Positions 2,300-33,399 of a DNA stretch of 64,000 nucleotides are shown piece after piece (position 1 is the first letter of the stretch; each line of letters starts with the position of its first letter). The position numbers and the translations under genes are program-made. Below the pieces are notes generated by a model. It was not told the origin of the DNA. It saw nothing but the letters and a program-made list of their open reading frames with translations, and made no database searches. The stretch covers positions 62,001-126,000 of the forward strand of contig NZ_JRLV01000005.1 in NCBI RefSeq assembly GCF_000769915.1. Reading direction: 5' to 3'. This stretch comes from Flavobacterium beibuense F44-8. GTDB taxonomy: Bacteria > Bacteroidota > Bacteroidia > Flavobacteriales > Flavobacteriaceae.

Positions 2300-2948
2300 A
2301 TTACTGAATAGGAATTAGAAAAACAATAAATAAGTATTACACAGTTTCAGGATTTCAAGAAATTAGCTTACTTTATATAAGATAAGCTTTCAGTTTAACT
2401 GTTTAGATATCCTGTTGGGGTTTAAAATACCTTAGGAGATTAATCGTATTCTGGTGAGAGGACTTGCCCGAATAATTTTCGAACACTTTTATAGGTTATT
2501 TTTCAATATTTACGAGGCTTGTGGTGTGATAGACTTAAGATGGGTCATGAGGCACGATACAGGATACCAGTTTTTGTCCAACTATCTAAAACATCACAAA
2601 CAAACTACTTTTAGTAACTGTAGTTGTTTTTAGTCTTTTACGCTTAGCATTCTTTACGTTCATCTCATTCTGTAAGAAAGCTCAAAGCTTCGATTTCAAT
2701 ATATAATTTATTTTGTAGGAGTTCCGCAAAAGCAGAATACAAAATAGTCAAGACCATGAATAATCTTTTGTTAAAAATTGCGTTATCAAGTCTGGAAATG
2801 AATTTTAAAAAATAGATAAAAATTCAAGAAAATTGATTTCCGATTAGCTCTTACCGGAAATCTTATATTTTGGTATTTTTAATTTTTTTAATCGCTTTTA
2901 GTTTTTTTGGGTTATTTTAGCCACTTTGAAGAAAATGTTCTGTTATCT
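2300..2948. other. Long intergenic gap without a convincing gene
   Basis: About 650 bp lie between the divergent HNH and AraC-type genes. I see no open frame with protein-like composition on either strand. At 2401-2422 a short stretch (ATCCTGTTGGGGT at its core) resembles the T-arm/3' end of a tRNA and a similar stretch at 14142-14163. The rest is AT-rich and may contain promoters for both flanking genes, none of which I can place with confidence. Confidence 0.5.
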
Positions 2949-3977
2949 ATGTTAAAAATACTTCAAATAATCGCCCTTACTCAGGGCTTGTTTCTTTTAA
3001 CCGTTCTGTTTGTTAAACAAGAAAATTACAAGCGGATAAATTTTCTACTTCTTCTGGGATCGATTATTGCTTTACTTCTGAATGTTGTTGGAGATGATAA
3101 TTTTAACCTGTTCTTTTCTGAGGCTAATTGGTATTTTTTCCAATCTCCTTTAATCATTACACTGTTTTTTTTACTTATAAAGTATCATAACTCCAAACAG
3201 GATAAGTTTCAACTTAGGGATTTTCTTTATTTTATTCCCTACTTGTTTTTTGTTACGCTTCAAATAGTTGAGGACGTAAACGGCTTAGTTGAAAATATAT
3301 GGTTAACAATAGGAGAAATTTTGGCAGGTGTAACACTATTATCTTATTTAGGTTATACTATCTATGATATAGTTAAAAACAAAAAGGAAAGATGGATGCT
3401 GTTTTTTATAGTTCCTTATGCTTTATTGCATTTAATAGACGAAATTTCATTTATTATAACAAACAGTTATGATAATATCTCCTTTCTGGAAAGTTATGGT
3501 ATTATAGGTTTGTCGGCCATACTTCTTTACATGATTTTATTTAAGCTTGTTGTATCACCAAAATCTGTATTACCGAAGGCTGATATCAAAGCTTACAAAA
3601 CTTCAAACCTTAGTAAATCAAAAGCTGAAATATATAAAAAGGAGTTTTTAAGGCTCATGGATAAAGAAAAGCTTTTTACTAATAGTAATATAACGGTTAA
3701 CCAAGTGGCTCAAAATATGGGTATTCCAAGACAGTACTTATCTGAAATCCTAAATGTATACCTGAAAACCAATTTTCAGGACTGCATGAACAAATACAGG
3801 GCTGAAGAATTTGTAGGTTGTCTCAAGGATGACAAGTTCAGGAGTTATTCTATTATGGGCATTGCCAACGAAGTTGGTTTCAAATCCAAATCCTCTTTTA
3901 ACACTACCTTTAAAAAAATATATGGGGTTACACCTAGTGAGTTTAAAAAGACTTTGACATTAACTTCTTTAGACTAA
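2949..3977 (+). CDS. AraC-family regulator with N-terminal membrane domain
   Basis: The 342-residue protein (ATG at 2949; the frame is open from a TTG at 2907) has about six or seven hydrophobic segments in residues 1-215. A linker and a two-helix-turn-helix AraC/XylS DNA-binding domain follow in about residues 235-340. The second half of that domain (IMGIANEVGFKSKSSFNTTF) and the ending YGVTPSEFKK are typical. Such membrane-anchored AraC regulators are common in flavobacteria and sense an unknown signal in or across the inner membrane. It lies 502 bp upstream of, and on the same strand as, a TonB-dependent receptor/DUF4249 pair, so control of that pair is a reasonable inference. Family call is firm, target is not. 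Confidence 0.85.
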   Translation: MLKILQIIALTQGLFLLTVLFVKQENYKRINFLLLLGSIIALLLNVVGDDNFNLFFSEANWYFFQSPLIITLFFLLIKYHNSKQDKFQLRDFLYFIPYLFFVTLQIVEDVNGLVENIWLTIGEILAGVTLLSYLGYTIYDIVKNKKERWMLFFIVPYALLHLIDEISFIITNSYDNISFLESYGIIGLSAILLYMILFKLVVSPKSVLPKADIKAYKTSNLSKSKAEIYKKEFLRLMDKEKLFTNSNITVNQVAQNMGIPRQYLSEILNVYLKTNFQDCMNKYRAEEFVGCLKDDKFRSYSIMGIANEVGFKSKSSFNTTFKKIYGVTPSEFKKTLTLTSLD

Positions 3978-4479
3978 ACACTTCCTTTTTCTCTTTACTC
4001 TTCATAGAAGAATTACATTTCAAATTTACTTCTTAGAAATTTAAGAAGCCTCAACTTTTTCGATGAGTATCGGATTGTTCGCTTAAATAGAGACGCCAAC
4101 TATTAATATTAAGGCTCTGTATTTATAATTACTATTTGAGTTGCAGGCCCACAAAAGTACTACCCACTTTGTGAAATGTTTTTTTCATTACCATGGTTTT
4201 AAGCCAAACCATAAACTTGTAAACCCTTACTCAACTAAAAAAACAAAAAGCCTTAAATTTTTCATTTTTGTGTTCCCTTAAGTGCGGGAAACGCATTTAG
4301 AACCTTTAAAACACACTAATTTATTTGGTTTAATGATTTGATATATAGTGTTTTAAAATCAATATAGCGCCAAATAGGTACTTCAGGCGGATTCAAGACC
4401 TACTTCATTTTAACCTTGAGATATGCATGTCTAATTTTGTCTTGGTAAAATGAAAACCTTAATCTAATTCTATTTAAGT
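3978..4479 (+). other. Intergenic/promoter region of the first TonB receptor locus
   Basis: The 502 bp between the AraC-type regulator and the receptor gene hold no convincing open frame. TAATTTTG at 4432-4439 fits the Bacteroidetes -7 box and is 40 bp from the receptor ATG. I see no TTTG at the usual distance upstream, so an activator (possibly the adjacent AraC-type protein) may be needed. A small dyad (ATGGTTT and AAACCAT near 4192-4212) is also present. Confidence 0.4.
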
Positions 4480-6888
4480 ATGACAAAAAAAAAGCGATTA
4501 AAACCATTTAGGTCAGTAAAAGGGTTGGCCTTATTTGTGGTGACAATGTTGTATCCGGTATTTTTCTTTGCACAAACAAACTACACCATTAGCGGTGTCG
4601 TTAAGGATGCTAATAACGGTGAAACACTCTTGGGGGCAACCGTCCTTTTAAAAGGTACCTCCATTGGAAGTACGACCAACGAATATGGTTTTTATTCTAT
4701 CACAGCGCCTGAAGGTAATTATACCTTACTCATTTCCTATTTAGGGTTTACAACTCTCGAAAGAGCTATAAATCTTAGTTCTAATCAAAAGCTCGACATT
4801 GAGATCAATGAGGATTTCACTCAATTAGATGAGGTAGTTATTGTAGCTGAAGAATCAAAGAAAGTAAACCTTCGAACACCACAAATGAGTATGACGAAAC
4901 TTTCAGCTAATGACATAAAACAGATACCCGTTGTTTTGGGCGAGGTAGATTTGATAAAGTCCATTCAATTGCTACCTGGTGTTACCAATGCCGGGGAAGG
5001 TGCATCAGGCTTCAATGTACGCGGTGGTGCAGAAGACCAAAACCTAATTCTTTTGGATGAGGCAATTATTTACAATGCATCCCATTTGTTTGGTTTCTTC
5101 TCAGTATTTAATGCTGATGCGATTAAGGATGTTAAATTATATAAAGGAGGCATTCCCGCACGTTTTGGAGGAAGGGCTTCTTCGGTACTGGACATACGTC
5201 AAAAAGACGGAAACAGTAAAGGCTTTGAACTCACTGGGGGTATAGGTGCTGTTTCCAGTCGTTTGGCGGCGGAAGGACCAATGTTTAAAGACAAAGGTTC
5301 ATTTCTGGTGGCCGGAAGAGCTTCTTATGTAAATATATTTTTGGCCTTAGCTAATGAAGACAGCAGAGCCGGATTTTACGATTTAAATCTGAAAACAAAT
5401 TATGAAATTGATGAAAAAAATAAGCTATATCTATCAGGTTATTTAGGTAATGATAATTTTAACCTGGCGGGATTTTTTACTAATTCATACGGAAACCTCT
5501 CCGGTAACTTGCGATGGAACCACATTTTTAATAACAAGTTATTCTCCAATGTATCCCTGATATACAGTCGATATAATTACAACCTGGAGATTCCTGTTGA
5601 AGGAATTGACTGGACTTCAGATATCAGCAATTATAATGTACGCTATGATTTTGGCTACTATGCAAACGATAAATTAAAATTTGATTTTGGCGTAAATAGT
5701 ATTTATTACAAATTTAATCCAGGGAAACTCAATCCTTTAGATGCAAATTCGGGTGTTAATCCGGAAAAGTTAGATAATAAATTTGCTATTGAAGCCGGAG
5801 TGTATACAAGTTTAGAACATAAAATTTCTGATAAACTTACCGCTCAATATGGTTTACGTTTTAGCTATTTTAATCGACTGGGGCCGCAAACTTTAAACAA
5901 TTATGCCAATAATTCACCAGTGGTTTACAACGAAGAGTTAGGTATTTATGAGCGTGCTGAATCTATTTCTAATACCAAATACGGAAAGGGAAAAAGTATA
6001 GCAACCTTCAATAATTTAGAACCTAGGGTAGCACTTTCGTACCAACTTAATGAGAAATCTTCTGTTAAAGCGAGTTATAACCGAATTGCTCAATACCTAC
6101 ATTTAATTTCCAACACTACATCAGCCACGCCATTAGATGTTTGGGCGCCTAGCGGGAAATTTATTGAACCACAAATTGCTGACCAGTATGCGGTAGGCTA
6201 CTTCAGAAATTTCAGGGGAAATATGTTTTCGATTGAAGCCGAAGCCTATTACAAGACTATTGACAATAGGGTAGATTATATTAATGGAGCAGAACTTATA
6301 GCACAAAATACCATTGAAACCGAAATTTTAACTGGTGAAGCAAGAGCCTATGGATTGGAGCTTTTATTAAGAAAGAACAAAGGTGATTTCACAGGTTGGG
6401 TGGCCTATACATTGTCAAAGTCGCAACAACGTACACCTGGTGGGGCGGCAGGAGGTTTAGGCATTAATAACGGGAAATGGTATAACTCTAATTGGGACAG
6501 GACTCACGACTTTTCGTTTACCGGAAGTTACAAACTCAACGAGAAATGGAGATTTGGAGCTAATATGGTATTCCAAACAGGACGACCTGTTACTTATCCA
6601 AACGGACAGTTTGTGTTCAACGGATTATCTGTAGCAACATATTCCGACAGGAATGCAGACCGATTGCCGGCCTACCACAGACTTGATCTTTCCGCAACCT
6701 TAACACCCCGAAAAAATGAAAACAGGAAGTGGCAGGGAGAATGGGTATTTGGTATATACAATGCTTATAATCGAAAAAATGCAGCTTCTATTTCTTTCGG
6801 TCAAAATCAGGAGACAGGCACAACAGAAGCGACTCGTACTGCCATATTTGGTATTGTCCCTTCAGTAACGTATAACTTTAAATTTTAA
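4480..6888 (+). CDS. TonB-dependent receptor with N-terminal carboxypeptidase-regulatory-like domain
   Basis: This 802-residue outer-membrane protein has a signal peptide (about residues 1-31), a carboxypeptidase-D regulatory-like beta domain (about 34-122, starting YTISGVVKDANNGETLLGAT), and a plug domain (about 140-250, with GFNVRGGAEDQNLILLDE and LYKGGIPARFGGR). A 22-stranded-type barrel follows, ending in aromatic phenylalanine (TYNFKF) as barrel proteins do. It would import an unknown ligand using TonB energy. The next gene, a DUF4249 lipoprotein, starts 4 bp after its stop, so they are one transcription unit. It is clearly paralogous to the receptor at 54676-57054, with near-identical plug motifs. 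The ligand cannot be read from sequence. Confidence 0.92.
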   Translation: MTKKKRLKPFRSVKGLALFVVTMLYPVFFFAQTNYTISGVVKDANNGETLLGATVLLKGTSIGSTTNEYGFYSITAPEGNYTLLISYLGFTTLERAINLSSNQKLDIEINEDFTQLDEVVIVAEESKKVNLRTPQMSMTKLSANDIKQIPVVLGEVDLIKSIQLLPGVTNAGEGASGFNVRGGAEDQNLILLDEAIIYNASHLFGFFSVFNADAIKDVKLYKGGIPARFGGRASSVLDIRQKDGNSKGFELTGGIGAVSSRLAAEGPMFKDKGSFLVAGRASYVNIFLALANEDSRAGFYDLNLKTNYEIDEKNKLYLSGYLGNDNFNLAGFFTNSYGNLSGNLRWNHIFNNKLFSNVSLIYSRYNYNLEIPVEGIDWTSDISNYNVRYDFGYYANDKLKFDFGVNSIYYKFNPGKLNPLDANSGVNPEKLDNKFAIEAGVYTSLEHKISDKLTAQYGLRFSYFNRLGPQTLNNYANNSPVVYNEELGIYERAESISNTKYGKGKSIATFNNLEPRVALSYQLNEKSSVKASYNRIAQYLHLISNTTSATPLDVWAPSGKFIEPQIADQYAVGYFRNFRGNMFSIEAEAYYKTIDNRVDYINGAELIAQNTIETEILTGEARAYGLELLLRKNKGDFTGWVAYTLSKSQQRTPGGAAGGLGINNGKWYNSNWDRTHDFSFTGSYKLNEKWRFGANMVFQTGRPVTYPNGQFVFNGLSVATYSDRNADRLPAYHRLDLSATLTPRKNENRKWQGEWVFGIYNAYNRKNAASISFGQNQETGTTEATRTAIFGIVPSVTYNFKF

Positions 6889-6892
6889 AACG

Positions 6893-7729
6893 ATGAAAAA
6901 TATAAATATATATAGCAGGCTGGGAGCACTCCTTGTAATAATAGGATTACTTCACTCATGTACGGATGTAATAGATGTTGATTTGCCTAACGGCGGTGCC
7001 CGACTGGTGGTTGATGCGTCTATTAGATGGCAAAAAGGTACTATGGGGGAAACGCAAACCATTAATTTAAGGCAATCAACTGCTTTTTTTAATAATACTC
7101 CAGATGTCCCTGTTACGGGTGCTTCGGTAACAGTAACTAAAGAAAACGACGGGTCGATATTTGTGTTTGCCGACCAGAATAATGGCAATTATACTGCAAC
7201 CGATTTTGTTCCGGAACTAAACACAACATACACTTTGGAAATTCTCTACAACGGCAACATCTATAAGGCAACCGAAACCTTAATCGCAGCACCTGTTATT
7301 AATCGTGTTGAGCAAACCATTGAAGGTTCTGGCGATGACACAGAAATTCAGCTTCAGGTATATTTTGATGATCCCGCAGCAATTGAAAATTATTATTTTG
7401 GGGAATTTATTCCGTCTAATTTACCACTGCCTTCTCTGGCCGTTATTAGTGATGAATTTACTGATGGTAACGAAAATTTTATTGAAAATGATAATGAAAA
7501 CTATACTGCTGGAGTAAATGTAAATATTAACCTCTATGGTATTTCAAGGCGGTATTATGACTATTTAAAAATATTGATTCAACAATCCGGGAGTGATGAA
7601 AATGGACCTTTTCCTGTTACCCCTGTACAGTTAAAAGGGAACTGTTCTAATATCAATAATTCTAACGAAGAGGTATTGGGATATTTTAGGCTAGGTGAAT
7701 TCGATACTACATCGTATACAATTAATTAG
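6893..7729 (+). CDS. DUF4249 lipoprotein, partner of the TonB-dependent receptor
   Basis: The 278-residue protein has a lipoprotein signal ending at Cys23 (LLVIIGLLHSC), then the DUF4249 opening (DVIDVDLPNGGARLVVDASI) and beta-rich repeats typical of the family. It ends with the family pattern of a GYFR-like segment (LGYFRLGEFDTTSYTIN). DUF4249 proteins are encoded next to TonB-dependent receptors in Bacteroidetes and are thought to be surface-exposed accessory lipoproteins; their biochemical role is unknown. It begins 4 bp after the receptor stop, so it is translated from the same message. Compared with the two DUF4249 proteins at 52974-54665, the order of conserved blocks is the same. Confidence 0.9.
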   Translation: MKNINIYSRLGALLVIIGLLHSCTDVIDVDLPNGGARLVVDASIRWQKGTMGETQTINLRQSTAFFNNTPDVPVTGASVTVTKENDGSIFVFADQNNGNYTATDFVPELNTTYTLEILYNGNIYKATETLIAAPVINRVEQTIEGSGDDTEIQLQVYFDDPAAIENYYFGEFIPSNLPLPSLAVISDEFTDGNENFIENDNENYTAGVNVNINLYGISRRYYDYLKILIQQSGSDENGPFPVTPVQLKGNCSNINNSNEEVLGYFRLGEFDTTSYTIN

Positions 7730-7753
7730 CTGTAGAATAAAAGACAGTGCCAT

Positions 7754-7817
7754 GGTTCAAAAATGTTTATTAGGAAGTATTGATAATTGCATAAACGGGA
7801 ATAGGCATTTTTGAACC
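7754..7817. repeat. 64-bp element bounded by 12-bp perfect inverted repeats
   Basis: GGTTCAAAAATG at 7754-7765 is the exact reverse complement of CATTTTTGAACC at 7806-7817. Inside, GTTTAT (7765-7770) and ATAAAC (7791-7796) extend the pairing imperfectly. It lies just after the DUF4249 gene. It could be the 3' stem-loop of the receptor operon message, though the T-run after it is broken (TTAATCTTTTT), or a tiny foldback element. Confidence 0.55.
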
Positions 7818-7874
7818 TTAATCTTTTTAGATATTTTATACAGATGGATTTACGTGAAAATAGATGAAAATCTA

Positions 7875-8954
7875 ATGGACGCTCAGGAAACTCAAAACAA
7901 AAAAATTAAAATGAATCCAAGAAAAATTATCAGGACCGCAACGAGGGGAGTAGCTAGATACCTTACTGCCGGTTTTAATAATAAGTCAGGAAAAGGAATC
8001 AGTAATAATGATGATATAAAAACAATCTTAATTTGCAGACCAAACCATAGATTAGGAAATTTACTGTTGCTTTTACCTTTGATTCAGGAGTTGGAATCCA
8101 CATTCCCAAATAGCGAGATTGATTTGCTGGTAAACCAATCATGTGCTATCCAACTATATAAAAATTATGATACTGTTAAAGAAGTTATTGAACTTCCCCG
8201 GAAACCTTTCAGGAATCCCATAAAGTACATCAGGACATTGCTACGGCTTAGAAGCAGGAAATATGATTTGGCTATAAGTGCCGTAGAGGAATGTTTTTAT
8301 GGAAGAGTATGTACGGGCATTTCTAATGCAAAGATCAAGTTTGTAGGTGATATGGATTCAGGGGTAAAAGAAAGACATATCGCAAAGCAAGTGATTTATT
8401 CCCTGAGGTTTTTTTTGTCCAATATAGGGGTTAAGTCAAATGTTTCGACTCCGGATAGCTTAGACTTGAGACTTTCGAATGATGAGCTGATACATGGTGG
8501 TAATATGGTATATAACATAACGCAAAATGGATTACCAACAATTTGTTTATACATGCATGCCACTTGTGCCAAATACCCTACAGAAGGATGGTGGCTTGAT
8601 CTATATGAGCATTTACAGAAAGCATTTCCGGATGTAAACATTATTGAAGTACTTCCAAAAGAAAATGTTTCTAAGTTTGATTTAAGAGCCCCTGCTTTGT
8701 ATTCCACAGACATAAGGGAAATGGCAGCTATAATTGCAAGCACAGATGTTTTTATTGGCACCGATAGTGGATTAATGCATTTGGCTAGTTCGTCGCTTAC
8801 ACCTACAATTGGTCTGTTTTCTGATACTGATACAGAAAAATACAAGCCTTACAACGAGGGAAGTGTTGCCGTAAAAACCAATGAGGTGGAAATCGATGAG
8901 TTGATAGTACTTGTTAAAAATAACCTTTATCCAGATCTAAACACTTCATTATGA
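7875..8954 (+). CDS. Glycosyltransferase family 9 (heptosyltransferase-like)
   Basis: The product resembles ADP-heptose:LPS heptosyltransferases. The N-terminal half has the family opening (ILICRPNHRLGNLLLLLPLI) and an LVNQ strand. The C-terminal half has a nucleotide-sugar-binding signature (FIGTDSGLMHLASS) in the usual place, shortly before the end. Such enzymes add sugars to lipooligosaccharide on the cytoplasmic face of the inner membrane. The length, about 359 residues from the ATG at 7875, is normal for the family. A GTG at 7854 in the same frame would add seven residues, and the ATG at 7911 would remove 12; the start is uncertain. It stands alone, with no polysaccharide cluster nearby, so the acceptor is unknown. 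Confidence 0.85.
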   Translation: MDAQETQNKKIKMNPRKIIRTATRGVARYLTAGFNNKSGKGISNNDDIKTILICRPNHRLGNLLLLLPLIQELESTFPNSEIDLLVNQSCAIQLYKNYDTVKEVIELPRKPFRNPIKYIRTLLRLRSRKYDLAISAVEECFYGRVCTGISNAKIKFVGDMDSGVKERHIAKQVIYSLRFFLSNIGVKSNVSTPDSLDLRLSNDELIHGGNMVYNITQNGLPTICLYMHATCAKYPTEGWWLDLYEHLQKAFPDVNIIEVLPKENVSKFDLRAPALYSTDIREMAAIIASTDVFIGTDSGLMHLASSSLTPTIGLFSDTDTEKYKPYNEGSVAVKTNEVEIDELIVLVKNNLYPDLNTSL

Positions 8955-9323
8955 AAATTAGGAGTTACATCAGGTTTTAAAGAGAATACAGAGAAATGGG
9001 TTTTATTTTAGAGTCCTAGTTGTGTTTATATGTTTGAGTTAGCTGCAACTTATGGGTAGATGGAGCCTCTGACCTCATCCAAAAGCCCATAAGATTGCAG
9101 GACATGTTTGTACTTTATGCAATGCCAGCTTAGCTTTGAGTCTATATTGATTAGGAAAAATAATCAAAAATTAAACGATTCTTCAATAGGCTTAGCTGGC
9201 ACCATTGCATTAAGGGTTTTGATTTTCAAATAGGCTATAATACAACTATTCCCCTAAATCTGAAAAATGTTATGCAATGTCGTAATGACATCGAAGATTA
9301 TGATAAATATTAGCTGATTAAAA
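8955..9323. other. Intergenic gap with two imperfect inverted repeats
   Basis: The 369 bp between the GT9 gene and the first NmrA-like gene have no convincing open frame. Two imperfect dyads are present. CTGCAACTTATGGG (9043-9056) faces CCCATAAGATTGCAG (9086-9100). ATGCAATGCCAGCTTAGC (9118-9135) faces a near-complement at 9190-9210. They could fold as two adjacent stem-loops in RNA, or be remnants of a small mobile element. Confidence 0.45.
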
Positions 9324-10250
9324 ATGAATCAACAATTGACAAGAAAAGATAAAATATTGGTAACAGGGGCTACGGGTCATTATGGGTATTCAGTTATTGA
9401 ATCATTGATTAAAAATGGGGTGAATGAAAGTCTGATTTATGCAATGGCCAGGGATTATACAAAAACAGAGAAATTAAACTCTTTGAATGTAAATATTGTA
9501 TTGGGCGATTATGACAATTACAGTTCAATGCTGAAGGCATTTTCTGGTATCGATAAACTATTTTTTGTTTCAGGTAATGTACTGGAAAACCGTAGTGAGC
9601 AACATCTTCAAGTTGTGAAAGCGGCTGTAAAGTCTGGAGTTAAGTATATTCTTTATACAAGCCAGGAACATAAAGAAGTTAATTTTTCTCATATTGATTT
9701 TATATTAAGTTCACATTTAGCAACAGAAAATGCCATTAAAGCAAGTGGTATGAATTATACCATATTACGAAATGGGCTCTATATGGATACATTGTCTAAA
9801 TTTTTAGACAAGAATATTTTTAAGCATGGTATTTACCTACCGGCCGGTAACGCGAAAATAGGATTTGCATTACGAAGCGAAATGGCGGAGGCAGCAGCGA
9901 AGGTTTTAGTCTCAAAGGGGCATGAAAATAAGACGTATACTGTATCCGGACGGAGTTATTCATTTTTAGAAATTGCAGAGTATATTTCTCAAATCACTGG
10001 TAAAAACATTACTTATTTAAGCCCGGGTGTTGATGCTTTTCTTGCTGTTGTAATTAATAAGGGAGTATCTGAAAAATGTGCTAAAATAATTGGTTGCTTT
10101 GCTGAAGCTGCCAAAGATGGGGAGTTGGAAAAGCTTCAGTTTATACAAATGGAAAAACTATTGGGTCGAAAACCCCTAACCGTTAAACAATATCTGGAGG
10201 AAACTTTTATTTTTAATTTTTTGAGTAGTGTGGGTAAAGAAAGGATTTAG
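9324..10250 (+). CDS. NmrA-like NAD(P)-binding oxidoreductase (atypical SDR)
   Basis: This is a 308-residue Rossmann-fold protein with the N-terminal nucleotide-binding loop GATGHYG (within ILVTGATGHYGYSVIESLI). It has the pattern of NmrA/quinone-oxidoreductase-2-like atypical short-chain dehydrogenases, which bind NAD(P) and act as reductases or redox sensors. It is a paralogue of the protein at 12907-13785, sharing order and motifs such as GHENKTY. The C-terminus is odd. Where the paralogue reads GEFENQSGDLERLLGRK, this protein reads GELEKLQFIQMEKLLGRK. The DNA of that insert (10125-10152) is an exact inverted copy of part of the MerR gene downstream. The substrate is unknown. Confidence 0.85.
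   Translation: MNQQLTRKDKILVTGATGHYGYSVIESLIKNGVNESLIYAMARDYTKTEKLNSLNVNIVLGDYDNYSSMLKAFSGIDKLFFVSGNVLENRSEQHLQVVKAAVKSGVKYILYTSQEHKEVNFSHIDFILSSHLATENAIKASGMNYTILRNGLYMDTLSKFLDKNIFKHGIYLPAGNAKIGFALRSEMAEAAAKVLVSKGHENKTYTVSGRSYSFLEIAEYISQITGKNITYLSPGVDAFLAVVINKGVSEKCAKIIGCFAEAAKDGELEKLQFIQMEKLLGRKPLTVKQYLEETFIFNFLSSVGKERI
10125..10152 (+). repeat. 28-bp inverted repeat, left arm (inside NmrA-like gene)
   Basis: Bases 10125-10152 are the exact reverse complement of 10499-10526. In this arm they encode LEKLQFIQM plus one base within the NmrA-like protein. The arms are 346 bp apart. Confidence 0.97.
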
Positions 10251-10301
10251 GCGCGACCAACTTTTAATTCTAATTTAGAATACTACATTAACAGGCAAAT
10301 A

Positions 10302-10667
10302 TTACTCCTGCTGGGTGGAGATATTGATTTTGCAAACCTCGATCTGCTTTTTCATAGCTTGCAATTCCTTGATTTTTTGATTGATCTGGACAACCTTAAG
10401 GTCTAGTACTTTTATTTTAGCAGCACGGCTCATTTCTTTCCGATACCATGCATCAATGACTTCTTTTATTTCGGCAAGGGTGAAGCCCACTGATTTTGCC
10501 ATTTGTATAAACTGAAGCTTTTCCAAGGCGTCATCACCATAATAAATATAATTATTAGTTGTGACTCCGTCCTTTTTCTGTCCACTGATTAGGCCTGTTT
10601 TCTCATAAAAGCGTATCGTCCCGATTGGAATTCCTGACTCTTTGGCTAACTGATGAATTAATTTCAT
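10302..10667 (-). CDS. MerR-family transcriptional regulator
   Basis: The 121-residue protein begins directly with the MerR winged helix-turn-helix (LAKESGIPIGTIRFYEKTGL, residues about 7-26). The second wing and the hallmark block LEKLQFIQMAKSVGFTLAEI follow, then a dimerising coiled coil (KVLDLKVVQINQKIKELQAM) and a short tail. The tail has one cysteine (C113), so a metal-sensing pair is not evident. The gene is divergent from the alpha/beta hydrolase and convergent with the NmrA-like gene, and likely controls one or both. A dyad sits at its own promoter (10687-10697). Its segment 10499-10526 also occurs inverted in the NmrA-like gene; in MerR proteins that block is native, so this is the probable donor. 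Confidence 0.9.
   Translation of the reverse strand: MKLIHQLAKESGIPIGTIRFYEKTGLISGQKKDGVTTNNYIYYGDDALEKLQFIQMAKSVGFTLAEIKEVIDAWYRKEMSRAAKIKVLDLKVVQINQKIKELQAMKKQIEVCKINISTQQE
10499..10526 (-). repeat. 28-bp inverted repeat, right arm (inside MerR gene)
   Basis: This is the exact reverse complement of 10125-10152. Read on the minus strand it encodes LEKLQFIQM in the same codon register as in the NmrA-like gene. The peptide is part of the conserved MerR pattern here. Confidence 0.97.
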
Positions 10668-10686
10668 AAAAAGTTAAAGTGTATAG

Positions 10687-10737
10687 TATACTGTATAGTT
10701 GTGAGTTACAAAATTAGTATTTAATTTTACATTCAAA
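10687..10737 (-). promoter_or_regulatory. Promoter and candidate operator of the MerR gene
   Basis: On the minus strand TTTG (10737-10734), 17 bp, then TAATTTTG (10716-10709) fits the Bacteroidetes -33/-7 pattern, 41 bp before the MerR ATG. Just downstream lies TATAC-T-GTATA (10687-10697), a perfect dyad near the expected start of transcription, as suits autoregulation. It is also in the promoter region of the divergent hydrolase. Confidence 0.5.
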
Positions 10738-10747
10738 TACGAATTCT

Positions 10748-11635
10748 ATGAAATATTCTGATGAAGAATTAGTGAGACAATTGCCTGGTTTTAAAAACGG
10801 TTATATGGCGGTAAACGGGACTGAACTGCATTACGTGGAAGGAGGTGAGGGCAACCCTATTATTTTACTTCCGGGATGGCCACAAACCTGGTGGGCATAC
10901 CATAAGGTTATGCCTATACTGGCCACGAAATTTAAAGTAATTGCGATTGATATACGGGGTATGGGTAGTTCACATAAACCGATGGAGGGATATGATAAGA
11001 AAAATATGGCTCTTGACGTGTACATGCTTGTAGATAAGCTCGGCTATAACTCAGTTGCAATTGCGGGACATGATATTGGTGCTCATGTTGCCTACAGCTT
11101 TGCCGCACAATTTAAGGAGGTAACCTCAAATCTTATAATGCTTGATACTCCCCATCCTGATCCCAGCATGTACAGCCTGCCCATGCTTCCTATACCCGGG
11201 CTGGACTATACTTATCCCTGGTGGGTGGCTTTTAACCAGGTTAAGAATTTACCGGAGCAGTTGCTGGAAGGAAAGATGGATATTGTTACAGAATGGATTT
11301 TTTCCCAAATGCTGCAGGATAAAGATTGCGTATCCGAGTTTGACAAGAAAGTGTATGCAAGTGCATACAATACTGCTGATGCCATTCGCGCCTCCAACGC
11401 TTGGTATCAGGCATTCGGGCAGGATATTAACGACAGCAAGAGCTACACTAAATTGACTATGCCGGTTTGCGCAGTCGGCGGTACAGGGTACGATATGCTG
11501 CAGGGAGCACTGCAGGGTCAAGCGGAAGATTTGCAACTGTTCAGGCTTGATGGGTGCGGACATTTTATCCTTGAAGAGCAGCCGGATATCGTTGCCGGCA
11601 TTATAATGGAATTTTTGCAGAGGCAGCTCACATAA
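10748..11635 (+). CDS. Alpha/beta hydrolase, epoxide hydrolase/dehalogenase type
   Basis: The 295-residue protein has the alpha/beta hydrolase fold. It has an HGxP-like oxyanion region (LLPGWPQTWWAYHKV), the strand before the elbow (VIAIDIRGMGSSHKP), the nucleophile elbow GHDIGAHVAYSFA with aspartate as nucleophile, and the C-terminal catalytic histidine in GCGHFILEEQP. An aspartate nucleophile points to epoxide hydrolases, haloalkane/haloacetate dehalogenases and relatives rather than esterases. No signal peptide is seen, so it is cytoplasmic. It is divergent from the MerR regulator across 80 bp that hold a dyad, which suggests MerR control and a detoxification role; that is inference. The substrate is unknown. 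Confidence 0.88.
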   Translation: MKYSDEELVRQLPGFKNGYMAVNGTELHYVEGGEGNPIILLPGWPQTWWAYHKVMPILATKFKVIAIDIRGMGSSHKPMEGYDKKNMALDVYMLVDKLGYNSVAIAGHDIGAHVAYSFAAQFKEVTSNLIMLDTPHPDPSMYSLPMLPIPGLDYTYPWWVAFNQVKNLPEQLLEGKMDIVTEWIFSQMLQDKDCVSEFDKKVYASAYNTADAIRASNAWYQAFGQDINDSKSYTKLTMPVCAVGGTGYDMLQGALQGQAEDLQLFRLDGCGHFILEEQPDIVAGIIMEFLQRQLT

Positions 11636-11859
11636 TAAGTATTCGGGGAATCTTAATCATAAAGAATTGGGACTATTCCTAAGTATTCGATACGGCAATT
11701 CTCTACGGAGTTTTTTTATATGAAAAGCAAAATGACTCTATGATTATATTAACTAGGAAAGTAGCTTGGCGTTAAAAGATGTGTTTGCTTACCTAAAGAT
11801 TAAGTTTATCCCAGGAAGCCGCACTTTGGCTGATTTTTGGTTGTTATAATTCCCCTTTA

Positions 11860-12228
11860 TTATTTGCGGTCTTTCAAATCCTTGTACTCAATAACAAAAG
11901 CTGTTAATTCAGCCATTTTTCCATCACGAAATCTCCATACATCACAGTAAGAATATTTAATGCTTTCTTTGTTTTCGTTCATCACAGCGATTTGACCAAT
12001 TGCTGTAAGATAATCATTTTCTGCAATCAAATTTTTAACCTCATTTTGTGGTGGTTGTATATATTCATTAGACATCCATTTTCGGACCGCTTCTTTTCCG
12101 TTTAGTATCTGGTCACCTACAAATATCCATTTGGTATCATTGGTACAATACTGAAGAAATTCTTCATAATTTCCTTTAGAAATAGCTTCGTTTGCCTTCT
12201 GTAAAATTATTTTGTTGTTTTCTTTCAT
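11860..12228 (-). CDS. SnoaL/NTF2-like protein
   Basis: This small (122-residue) protein has the NTF2-like cone fold pattern: an N-terminal helix pair (NEAISKGNYEEFLQYCTNDT), KWIFVGDQILNGKEAVRKW, and the strand pattern ending in DVWRFRDGKMAELTAFVIEY. Members include ketosteroid isomerases, polyketide cyclases and many proteins of unknown function. It lies downstream of the HxlR regulator on the same strand with a gap of 117 bp, inside the small redox cluster. No catalytic role can be assigned from sequence alone. Confidence 0.8.
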   Translation of the reverse strand: MKENNKIILQKANEAISKGNYEEFLQYCTNDTKWIFVGDQILNGKEAVRKWMSNEYIQPPQNEVKNLIAENDYLTAIGQIAVMNENKESIKYSYCDVWRFRDGKMAELTAFVIEYKDLKDRK

Positions 12229-12345
12229 AGTAGTATTCTGTATTTACATAATAATAGTAGCTATCCGTATGTTGAAAATATGGAATAGGCTATATAGCTA
12301 GAAAATTATCCGGAATTTCACGATCAGGATGTATTGACAATTTTG

Positions 12346-12798
12346 TTAATCACGATTATTTTCATCTTCCTGCAATAGATTAAGCATAACTTTTTTAAGA
12401 AATTTTGATTTGTTCTTTTTTACTTCTTTGAGAAACGGCGAACATTCATCAGAGTTAGAGATATATTTTCCTCCCCAAATGGCTAATTCAATCAAAACCG
12501 GTATTAAATCAGCACCTTTCGGACTAAGTCTATACAGCCCTTTTACTTTATTGCCGGGATATGGTAATTTGGTAATTATTCCATTATCCTCTAATAACTG
12601 TAACCTATTTGCTAATATATTCGTTGCTATTTTTTCTGCAGATTTTGTAAAGTCTCCATAAGTCCGTGTTTTGTATAACATTAAATCCCTAACTATCAAT
12701 AACGACCATTTATCTCCGAAAATATCCAGTGATGAACTTATCGGGCAATCGGAGCGCATTTCAGCTTTCTCATCAGTTTTTATGTTTTTTACTTGCAT
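12346..12798 (-). CDS. HxlR-family winged-helix transcriptional regulator
   Basis: The 150-residue protein has the HxlR domain in residues about 17-110: CPISSSLDIFGDKWSLLIVR, the recognition region (FTKSAEKIATNILANRLQLL), and the wing GLYRLSPKG. A basic C-terminal tail follows. The conserved N-terminal cysteine (in DCPI) is the residue oxidised or alkylated in redox-sensing relatives such as YodB and HypR, so thiol or quinone sensing is plausible. It is divergent from the NmrA-like quinone-reductase-type gene at 12907. The shared 108-bp gap carries ACTTGC boxes spaced 33 bp apart (12791, 12824, 12857), one overlapping this gene's own start codon, which suits autorepression. Confidence 0.9.
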   Translation of the reverse strand: MQVKNIKTDEKAEMRSDCPISSSLDIFGDKWSLLIVRDLMLYKTRTYGDFTKSAEKIATNILANRLQLLEDNGIITKLPYPGNKVKGLYRLSPKGADLIPVLIELAIWGGKYISNSDECSPFLKEVKKNKSKFLKKVMLNLLQEDENNRD

Positions 12799-12862
12799 AT
12801 TAAAAGTAATTATTTAATTTTATACTTGCTTTTTGCAAGTTGTTATTTTAATTTTCACTTGC
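12791..12862. promoter_or_regulatory. Candidate HxlR operators between divergent genes
   Basis: ACTTGC occurs at 12791-12796, 12824-12829 and 12857-12862, exactly 33 bp apart each time. The middle one forms a perfect dyad ACTTGC-N5-GCAAGT (12824-12840). The first touches the HxlR start codon; the last is 45 bp before the reductase start. The regular spacing, close to three helical turns, suggests cooperative binding by dimers. Confidence 0.6.
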
Positions 12863-12906
12863 AAATAAAAAGCAAATTTAAGTATTAAAAATAAAAATAT
12901 TACATC

Positions 12907-13785
12907 ATGATGAAAATTTTAGTGACTGGAGCTACAGGAGTAGTTGGAAAAAGTACAGTTGAGCATCTGTTAAAAAAGGGTGTTCCCGCAAATCAAATTA
13001 TCGGCCTTTCCAGAAAAAAAGAAAATCTAAAGGACTTAGCAGCAAAAGGTGTAGAAATACGTGAAGGTGATTATTTCGATTACAATTCTTTACTACGTGC
13101 ATTTGAAGGTGTCGATAGAATTATGCTAACAAGTGCAATTGCTTTTACAGATCGATTTACCCAACATTATAATGTTATTACCGCTGCCCGACAAATGGGC
13201 GTTAAGCACGTAGTATATATGTCAATTATGCGCAAAGAAGGTTCGGGGCGTATCATACCTGAAGTTACGGAGTCAGATCGTTTTACAGAGCAAGTACTTC
13301 AATCTTCAGGACTGGATTATACTATAGTATACCATCCACCTTTTGCAGATCTTCTATCGTTCTATTATAGTCCCAATCCGTACGAAGATGGAATAAAAGT
13401 TCCTGCAAATAACGGGAAAATGGCGCCTGCGACAAGAGATGAATTGGCTGAAGCCCATGCTGAAGTACTTTCTACACCAGGGCATGAAAACAAAACGTAT
13501 TCATTAGGTGGTTCCTATTCTATTTCGTTTTCCGACATAGCAAAAATTCTATCTGAAGTAGGAGGAAAGCCAGTTTCTTTTATCACCATTACAGCCGAAG
13601 AATATATTGATGGGATAGTTAGCCGAGGAGTCGCTCGTCATGTAGCCGAGTTTATAACTGCTTGGGTATTGGCAATTGAAGGAGGTGAATTCGAAAATCA
13701 ATCAGGTGACCTGGAGCGTTTATTAGGTAGAAAGACAAAAAGTTTCACAGATCTCGTGGAAACATCTTTAGTTGAGAATAAGTAA
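12907..13785 (+). CDS. NmrA/QOR2-like NAD(P)H-binding oxidoreductase
   Basis: This 292-residue atypical short-chain dehydrogenase has GATGVVG in the N-terminal nucleotide-binding loop and a C-terminal block LERLLGRKTKSF typical of NmrA/quinone oxidoreductase-2-like proteins. It shares many blocks with the paralogue at 9324-10250 and lacks that protein's odd KLQFIQM insert. It starts with two methionines (12907 and 12910), and either could be used. It is divergent from an HxlR regulator whose family often controls quinone- and electrophile-responsive reductases. A role in electrophile or quinone stress is therefore a fair inference, not proven. Confidence 0.87.
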   Translation: MMKILVTGATGVVGKSTVEHLLKKGVPANQIIGLSRKKENLKDLAAKGVEIREGDYFDYNSLLRAFEGVDRIMLTSAIAFTDRFTQHYNVITAARQMGVKHVVYMSIMRKEGSGRIIPEVTESDRFTEQVLQSSGLDYTIVYHPPFADLLSFYYSPNPYEDGIKVPANNGKMAPATRDELAEAHAEVLSTPGHENKTYSLGGSYSISFSDIAKILSEVGGKPVSFITITAEEYIDGIVSRGVARHVAEFITAWVLAIEGGEFENQSGDLERLLGRKTKSFTDLVETSLVENK

Positions 13786-14240
13786 AATAATAGATTTTAA
13801 TAAGCGAAATGGCACAGAAGATATGTTCTCAGCAACTTCGTTATGTCGCTGGTGCTGTGCTAAACATAGACAGGAAGTATAAGCATTTAAAAAGCGACAG
13901 AAGGTTTTATAGTTAGTCATTTGAGTTGACTTTTCAAAATTAAATAGGCAATAGTTGCAAAATAAAGCCATAAAGAAAAAGTACAAAACCGTAGCAAATA
14001 CTCCGGTTGAAAAAGATAGTCGACTATTATTTTTCTTTGAATTATGTAAAAGAATTTTTGAATGAAAGCTTTCAGCAGTCTTGAGAGTTTTTTTATGTAC
14101 TCACAATATAAAATTTACAGATTTAGTTTTATTATTTAAACGGTTTAATCCTGTCGGGGTAACTACTCGGGACATCCAAACCCGCTGTAAAATCTTATAA
14201 ATCTTAGTGTATAATTCTAAATATGTAAGATTATACAAAT
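13786..14240. other. Intergenic gap, no convincing gene
   Basis: About 455 bp lie between the reductase and the terminator of the tRNA. A 72-codon minus-strand frame overlapping the reductase end has no protein-like pattern and is not accepted. At 14142-14163 there is a fragment similar to the 3' end of the nearby tRNA but in the opposite orientation (GGTTTAATCCTGTCGGGGT). The rest is AT-rich and featureless to my eye. Confidence 0.5.
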
Positions 14241-33221: not shown

Positions 33222-33248
33222 TGGTGTGGTTGTTTTTGCTGCTGCAAT

Positions 33249-33391
33249 ATATAAAAAAAGAGGTTGTCTCAAATTAATCCTGTAGGATTAGTGTCATTCT
33301 GACGAAGGAAGAATCTCTGTTTTTCAGAAGATTTTTATACTCCACTTCGTTTTGCTCAAAATGACATTTGAGACAACCTCTTTTTTTATAT
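33249..33391. repeat. 143-bp foldback (MITE-like) element
   Basis: The 26 bases at 33249-33274 are the exact reverse complement of 33366-33391 (core GAGGTTGTCTC / GAGACAACCTC). Inner sequence TCATTCTGACGAAGGAAG (33293-33310) faces a near-complement ending AAAATGACAT, so the whole element can fold back on itself. It carries no gene. The sequence type (GAGACAACCTC, GACGAAGGAAG) resembles repeats scattered in other flavobacterial genomes, from memory. Confidence 0.85.
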
Positions 33392-33399
33392 AGTTTTGT

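Follow-up and report, generated by a model that had tools for sequence, protein, structure and literature searches.

A short tract of a MerR-family regulator gene was very probably copied into the neighbouring NmrA-like gene by a replication template switch in the lineage of this genome. The two genes lie tail-to-tail on opposite strands of the window, by which we mean the whole 64,000-nt stretch of DNA that was analysed. Each of them carries one arm of a perfect 28-bp inverted repeat, and the features concerned are collected in Table 1.

Table 1. Positions of the donor and recipient genes, the repeat, and related features in the window.
Feature	Position	Strand	Basis or content
NmrA-like NAD(P)-binding protein gene, 308 aa (recipient)	9324..10250	+	ORF; Pfam NmrA PF05368, E 5.9e-29
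Arm 1 of the perfect 28-bp repeat	10125..10152	+	NmrA codons 268–276 (residues LEKLQFIQM) and first base of codon 277
Minimal foreign tract, AAGCTTCAGTTTATA (KLQFI)	10131..10145	+	Codon alignment with six close relatives; 15 nt against their 12 nt
Spacer, 346 bp	10153..10498	.	NmrA 3' end, intergenic gap, MerR 3' end; C-termini like those of relatives
MerR-family regulator gene, 121 aa (donor)	10302..10667	-	ORF; Pfam MerR_1, E 1.8e-16; MerR-DNA-bind, E 1.8e-15
Arm 2 of the perfect 28-bp repeat	10499..10526	-	MerR codons 48–56 (residues LEKLQFIQM) and first base of codon 57
Donor tract in MerR (KLQFI)	10506..10520	-	Within the 20-nt run identical in the G247 MerR (L062)
Alpha/beta hydrolase gene, divergent partner of MerR	10748..11635	+	ORF; pair in G247
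NmrA-like paralogue without the block (GEFENQSGDLERLLGRK)	12907..13785	+	ORF, alignment

The inverted repeat

The two arms were exact reverse complements at 28 of 28 bases and both encode LEKLQFIQM, just as the preliminary description had read them. Beyond the perfect part, the inverted repeat extended imperfectly to 50 bp at 84% identity. This pair was the longest perfect inverted repeat of the window, while the longest repeat in shuffled versions of the window measured 15–18 bp (40 dinucleotide-preserving shuffles). From base composition, the expected number of 28-bp pairs is about 1e-7 for the whole window and about 2e-9 for arms no more than 400 bp apart. A search of the assembly confined the 28-mer to its two arms in the 3.8-Mb genome. 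We also scanned 264 kb, made up of the window and ten 20-kb pieces of its own 266-kb contig, for perfect inverted repeats no shorter than 17 bp whose spacers do not exceed 3 kb; each piece was scanned separately. Seven such repeats were obtained, and the NmrA/MerR repeat alone had both arms wholly within ORFs of at least 300 nt. That the arms are perfectly identical is not in itself proof of a recent event.

Elsewhere in the window, a mostly intergenic, MITE-like element of 145 bp (33248–33392) is bounded by 27-bp perfect terminal inverted repeats. It is single-copy, its 16-bp arm pattern (up to one mismatch) being found genome-wide only at its own two arms.

The foreign tract in the NmrA-like gene

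Six close homologues (L032 and L056–L060) showed 71–81% protein identity to the window NmrA, and the closest by DNA were L060, L056, and L057 (84–85% identical). Five of the six came from the genome_contigs scan and belong to Galbibacter (L056), Flavivirga (L057), Maribacter (L058), Muricauda (L059), and Sinomicrobium (L060); L032 comes from a genome of the same genus (G418). KLQFI and the extra codon were missing in all six, where the site follows the pattern GEL-E/D-S-x-x-x-QM. The individual sequences were GELES-DSLQMEK (L060), GELES-DGLQMEK (L056), GELES-NGLQMEK (L057), GELES-DDAQMEK (L058), GELES-DSAQMEK (L059), and GELDS-DSLQMAK (L032). The window NmrA reads GELEKLQFIQMEK at the same place.

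Wider comparisons gave the same result. In a 26-row alignment, which combined the window NmrA and its paralogue with 24 of the 58 fetched homologue loci, the extra residue was unique to the window NmrA, and both KLQFI and this residue were absent in the 25 other rows. KLQFI occurred in none of the 34 NmrA homologues of at least 37% identity among the matches listed. The genome_contigs scan, which had EKLQFIQM among its query peptides and may omit records from the genome itself or from a very near one, returned five NmrA relatives, none of them block-bearing. The absence of KLQFI from all these homologues supports the preliminary proposal that the MerR gene was the source of a short conversion or template switch, which thus withstood the refuting check set out with it.

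At the codon level, the foreign stretch in the window NmrA consists of AAG CTT CAG TTT ATA. It is enclosed by native NmrA codons, with TTG GAA before the tract (TTA GAT in L032) and CAA ATG after it. The LE and QM of the block are native among the NmrA relatives, with LD in one of the six. A foreign tract in NmrA is well supported, and the alignment indicates that about 15 nt of MerR sequence took the place of 12 nt. The foreign part of the 28-bp block first described is thereby narrowed to KLQFI, the outer residues being NmrA's own. The gain of one residue was borne out by all six close relatives; the idea that GDLE-type residues had been replaced did not hold, as the relatives have S-D-S-L-like residues there.

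The reading frame of the NmrA gene was intact, and dN/dS outside the block was about 0.2 relative to L060 (0.100/0.468). Judged by its sequence, the gene is still under purifying selection. With L032 as the outgroup, the window NmrA branch exceeded the L060 branch for dN as well as for dS (by difference), and the window-side branch came to about 0.36 dS, again by difference. A structure predicted from the 26-row alignment had a mean pLDDT of 89.5. In this model, residues 265–275 form a predicted loop between helices 250–264 and 276–280. Because the block falls in the predicted loop, a foreign segment would plausibly be tolerated there, and the KLQFI change was probably tolerated rather than selected.

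Origin of the tract in the MerR gene

The nearest MerR gene was found in another genome, G247 (L062), with 89% identity; it carries ALEKLQFIQMAKSVGFTLAEI. It matched the window MerR at 25 of the 28 bases, and an uninterrupted 20-nt identical run spans the foreign tract. Among seven MerRs of 56–70% identity (L063–L069), six contained (E/D)K(L/I)RFIQMAKAVGF and the seventh was without it. The local match between the window NmrA and the G247 MerR scored 50, a value reached by none of 300 codon shuffles. The block is native to MerR proteins, as the preliminary description had held, since it is present in the G247 MerR and, in a similar form, in six others; the direction of copying is therefore from MerR to NmrA. 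Copying from NmrA to MerR was ruled out, because the nearest MerR is natively block-bearing.

Genomic neighbourhood

Among the loci examined, NmrA–MerR adjacency was seen in the window genome only. The surroundings of NmrA in the six close relatives, covered as far as 3 kb to each side (1.5 kb for L032), yielded no MerR match, and the 18 kb around the G418 NmrA gave no DNA match to the MerR gene. The similarity of the window NmrA to its relatives stops by about 10270, and the MerR–hydrolase pair is common to G247 (10295–11638, 85% identical DNA). A rearrangement appears to have brought the NmrA and MerR genes together, and the tract appears to have been copied at the same time or later.

In the genus and family samples (398 and 397 genomes, respectively), each species was represented by a single genome, and both samples were drawn from larger groups. 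The family-wide NmrA search (397 genomes, E 1e-95) returned only the genome's own NmrA. The corresponding MerR search (397 genomes, E 1e-48) gave three further MerRs of 66–69% identity, which left the branch unshortened. Because none of the relatives found shares this gene neighbourhood, the event can be assigned no more closely than to some point on the long branch.

Comparison of window positions 2751–13813 with G247 (L091) revealed shared but shuffled AraC, DUF4249, MerR/hydrolase, HxlR, and NmrA-like genes; a putative TonB-receptor-like gene also belongs to this shuffled cluster. In G247, the MerR/hydrolase pair has another position and orientation with respect to the other genes of the cluster, and a second NmrA-like gene lies nearby. 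A mobile origin was considered and rejected: the pair was on no plasmid record (two weak matches concerned the hydrolase only), and the viral scan yielded no relative.

Other similarities were seen around the NmrA gene. The DNA at about 8854–9301 resembles the beginning of a 200-aa gene found directly before NmrA in L060 and G418, the match stopping at about 9240. The gap to NmrA is much shorter than in L060, and the 200-aa gene, putatively PAP2-phosphatase-like, looks truncated in the window. Upstream of NmrA lies a glycosyltransferase family 9 gene (7854–8954), a relative of which likewise precedes NmrA in G418, where one gene separates the two. A SnoaL-like gene (11860–12228) shows 84% DNA identity to its G418 copy (L092), located about 4 kb from the G418 NmrA.

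Possible similarity of the two genes before the event

Two flank motifs are native in NmrA, TTGGAAA in five of the six relatives and CAAATGG in all six, and both match the window MerR. We compared five NmrA relatives with the window MerR and the G247 MerR, which made ten native pairs. The best local match fell on the block site in five of these, namely L060 and L032 with both MerRs and L056 with the window MerR, and it was weak relative to codon shuffles. For the window MerR, the site score was matched by 24 (L060), 8 (L032), and 85 (L056) of 300 shuffles each; for the G247 MerR, by 171 (L060) and 63 (L032) of 300. In the remaining five pairs the best match was located elsewhere or, for L059 with the G247 MerR, overlapped the region. 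With a third MerR (L063, 70% identity), the best match was off site for all five relatives, and L060 scored higher there (36.5). An imperfect likeness of NmrA and MerR at the site before the event is thus plausible, but the case made by these alignments is not strong. On the proposed explanation, the flank similarity to MerR would be older than the event. The flank codons of the window MerR may, however, have arisen in the event itself.

Mechanism and alternative explanations

An imperfect inverted repeat made perfect is the trace left by template switching. In the mechanism that we propose, both genes would already have had in common a chance imperfect inverted repeat, composed of TTGGAAA..., CAGTTTA, CAAATGG, and AAAA. 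With its end in one flank, either the TTGGAAA-like or the CAAATGG-like, a nascent strand would have annealed to the MerR site about 350 bp off. About 15 nt would have been copied from MerR, followed by a return to NmrA at the other flank. Such a switch would turn 12 nt into 15 nt and S-x-x-x into KLQFI, keep the frame, and leave a repeat that is perfect over 28 bp. The strand may have folded back onto the MerR sequence that it carried itself, leaving a loop of 346 nt, or it may have switched across the fork. We infer a single event, and one of replicative template switching, not of RecA-type gene conversion.

The latter process has a small chance of being the right explanation. In non-replicative gene conversion, a break in NmrA would have been repaired via the MerR site through the short flank similarities; donor, recipient, and tract would be identical to those of the template switch, and the trace of a short conversion, through annealing or RecA, would be the same. 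The uninterrupted flank identity between the L060 NmrA and the window MerR amounts to only 7 bp and 9 bp, which speaks against conversion. Identity of 7–9 bp is probably too little for efficient RecA-type recombination. At 346 bp, the spacer is far above the limit of 70 bp given in the cited passages of the yeast survey (PMC8604942), and this counts against a template switch.

An exchange in both directions is improbable. In that case, MerR would have given KLQFI and taken the outer codons TTG and CAA from NmrA. The window and G247 MerRs differ at three bases in the 28 bp (CTT/TTG and CAG/CAA), and all three window bases agree with the flanks of the NmrA relatives, as a two-way exchange would have it. 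However, other MerRs vary at the TTG and CAA codons and do not polarise the change. The argument is also partly circular, because identity served to delimit the 28-bp tract in the first place.

The preliminary description had further raised the possibility of an invertible switch, in which recombination between the arms turns the 346 bp and swaps both C-termini in frame. The geometry stood up, as inversion in silico produced an open 341-aa NmrA–MerR hybrid and an 88-aa MerR–NmrA hybrid. The genome has nine PF00589 (tyrosine) and two PF00239 (serine) recombinase matches that could act from afar; none of the nine and neither of the two is on the contig of the window (C51), all 11 being on other contigs. 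The idea of a working switch found no support in the C-termini, the recombinases, or the relatives. The C-termini of NmrA and MerR are both like those of their relatives, that is, ancestral, and no swapped C-termini were found in the relatives examined. Among the genomes examined, the repeat is private to the window genome, being missing from the 34 NmrA homologues among the matches listed and from the 25 other alignment rows. The assembly shows one orientation, with the 28-mer in its two parental contexts only. Taken together, these observations make a switch very unlikely. We regard as similarly far-fetched a combined reading, in which a two-way exchange with rare in-frame C-terminal swaps by inversion would make the locus a nascent coding shufflon born of a copying error.

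Chance or convergent point mutation can practically be dismissed: the segments are short and partly alike in unaffected relatives, but relative to L060 the change would take three substitutions together with separate insertions of 1 nt and 2 nt, all within about 15 nt, each required change heads towards the MerR sequence, and the expectation within 400 bp is the one quoted above (about 2e-9). Since no genome was found that has the NmrA–MerR neighbourhood without the block, the branch is long, and a stepwise origin keeps a small probability. The close relatives, none of which has the NmrA–MerR neighbourhood, contained no stepwise intermediates.

Relation to known systems and significance

Template switching is the reading that we favor, and on this reading the locus offers a clear instance of a process already known, not a new system. 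As described in the cited passages of the yeast survey (PMC8604942), template-switch homogenisation in coding DNA involves perfect arms of 7–16 bp with spacers of up to 70 bp and changes up to five neighbouring residues; phage T4 rII and E. coli rpsL and thyA are among the cases named there. The present locus resembles the quasipalindrome correction outlined in those passages, in that one arm is copied onto the other, an imperfect repeat becomes perfect, and adjacent residues are replaced. It differs from the surveyed yeast cases in its 346-bp spacer, its 28-bp arm, its two unrelated convergent genes, and the gain of one codon. The four-point model, which in the portion cited (PMC7954356) covers intra- and inter-strand switching in great ape genomes, likewise explains a mutation cluster by a brief reverse-orientation copy from nearby at one fork. 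Unlike the great ape case, the event here concerns bacterial coding DNA, with two genes as donor and recipient.

Perfect inverted repeats in coding sequence, with both arms coding, are also reported in the cited part of the work on Nematomorpha mitochondria (PMC6649704). There the repeats are numerous and reach 284 bp, whereas here a single repeat lies between two genes. As for the invertons, or gene-altering programmed inversions, described in the cited section of PMC11892184, recombination between the repeats could recode proteins. In contrast to these, the contig here has no recombinase match and the relatives examined are without the repeat.

On the preferred explanation, a five-residue segment would have moved in frame between unrelated bacterial genes by a copying error, and the donor, the recipient, and the pre-event state are all recoverable from relatives. 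The result suggests that scans for bacterial template switches should cover convergent neighbouring genes and spacers of several hundred bases. Clusters of changes that span several residues and look adaptive can stem from one copying event.
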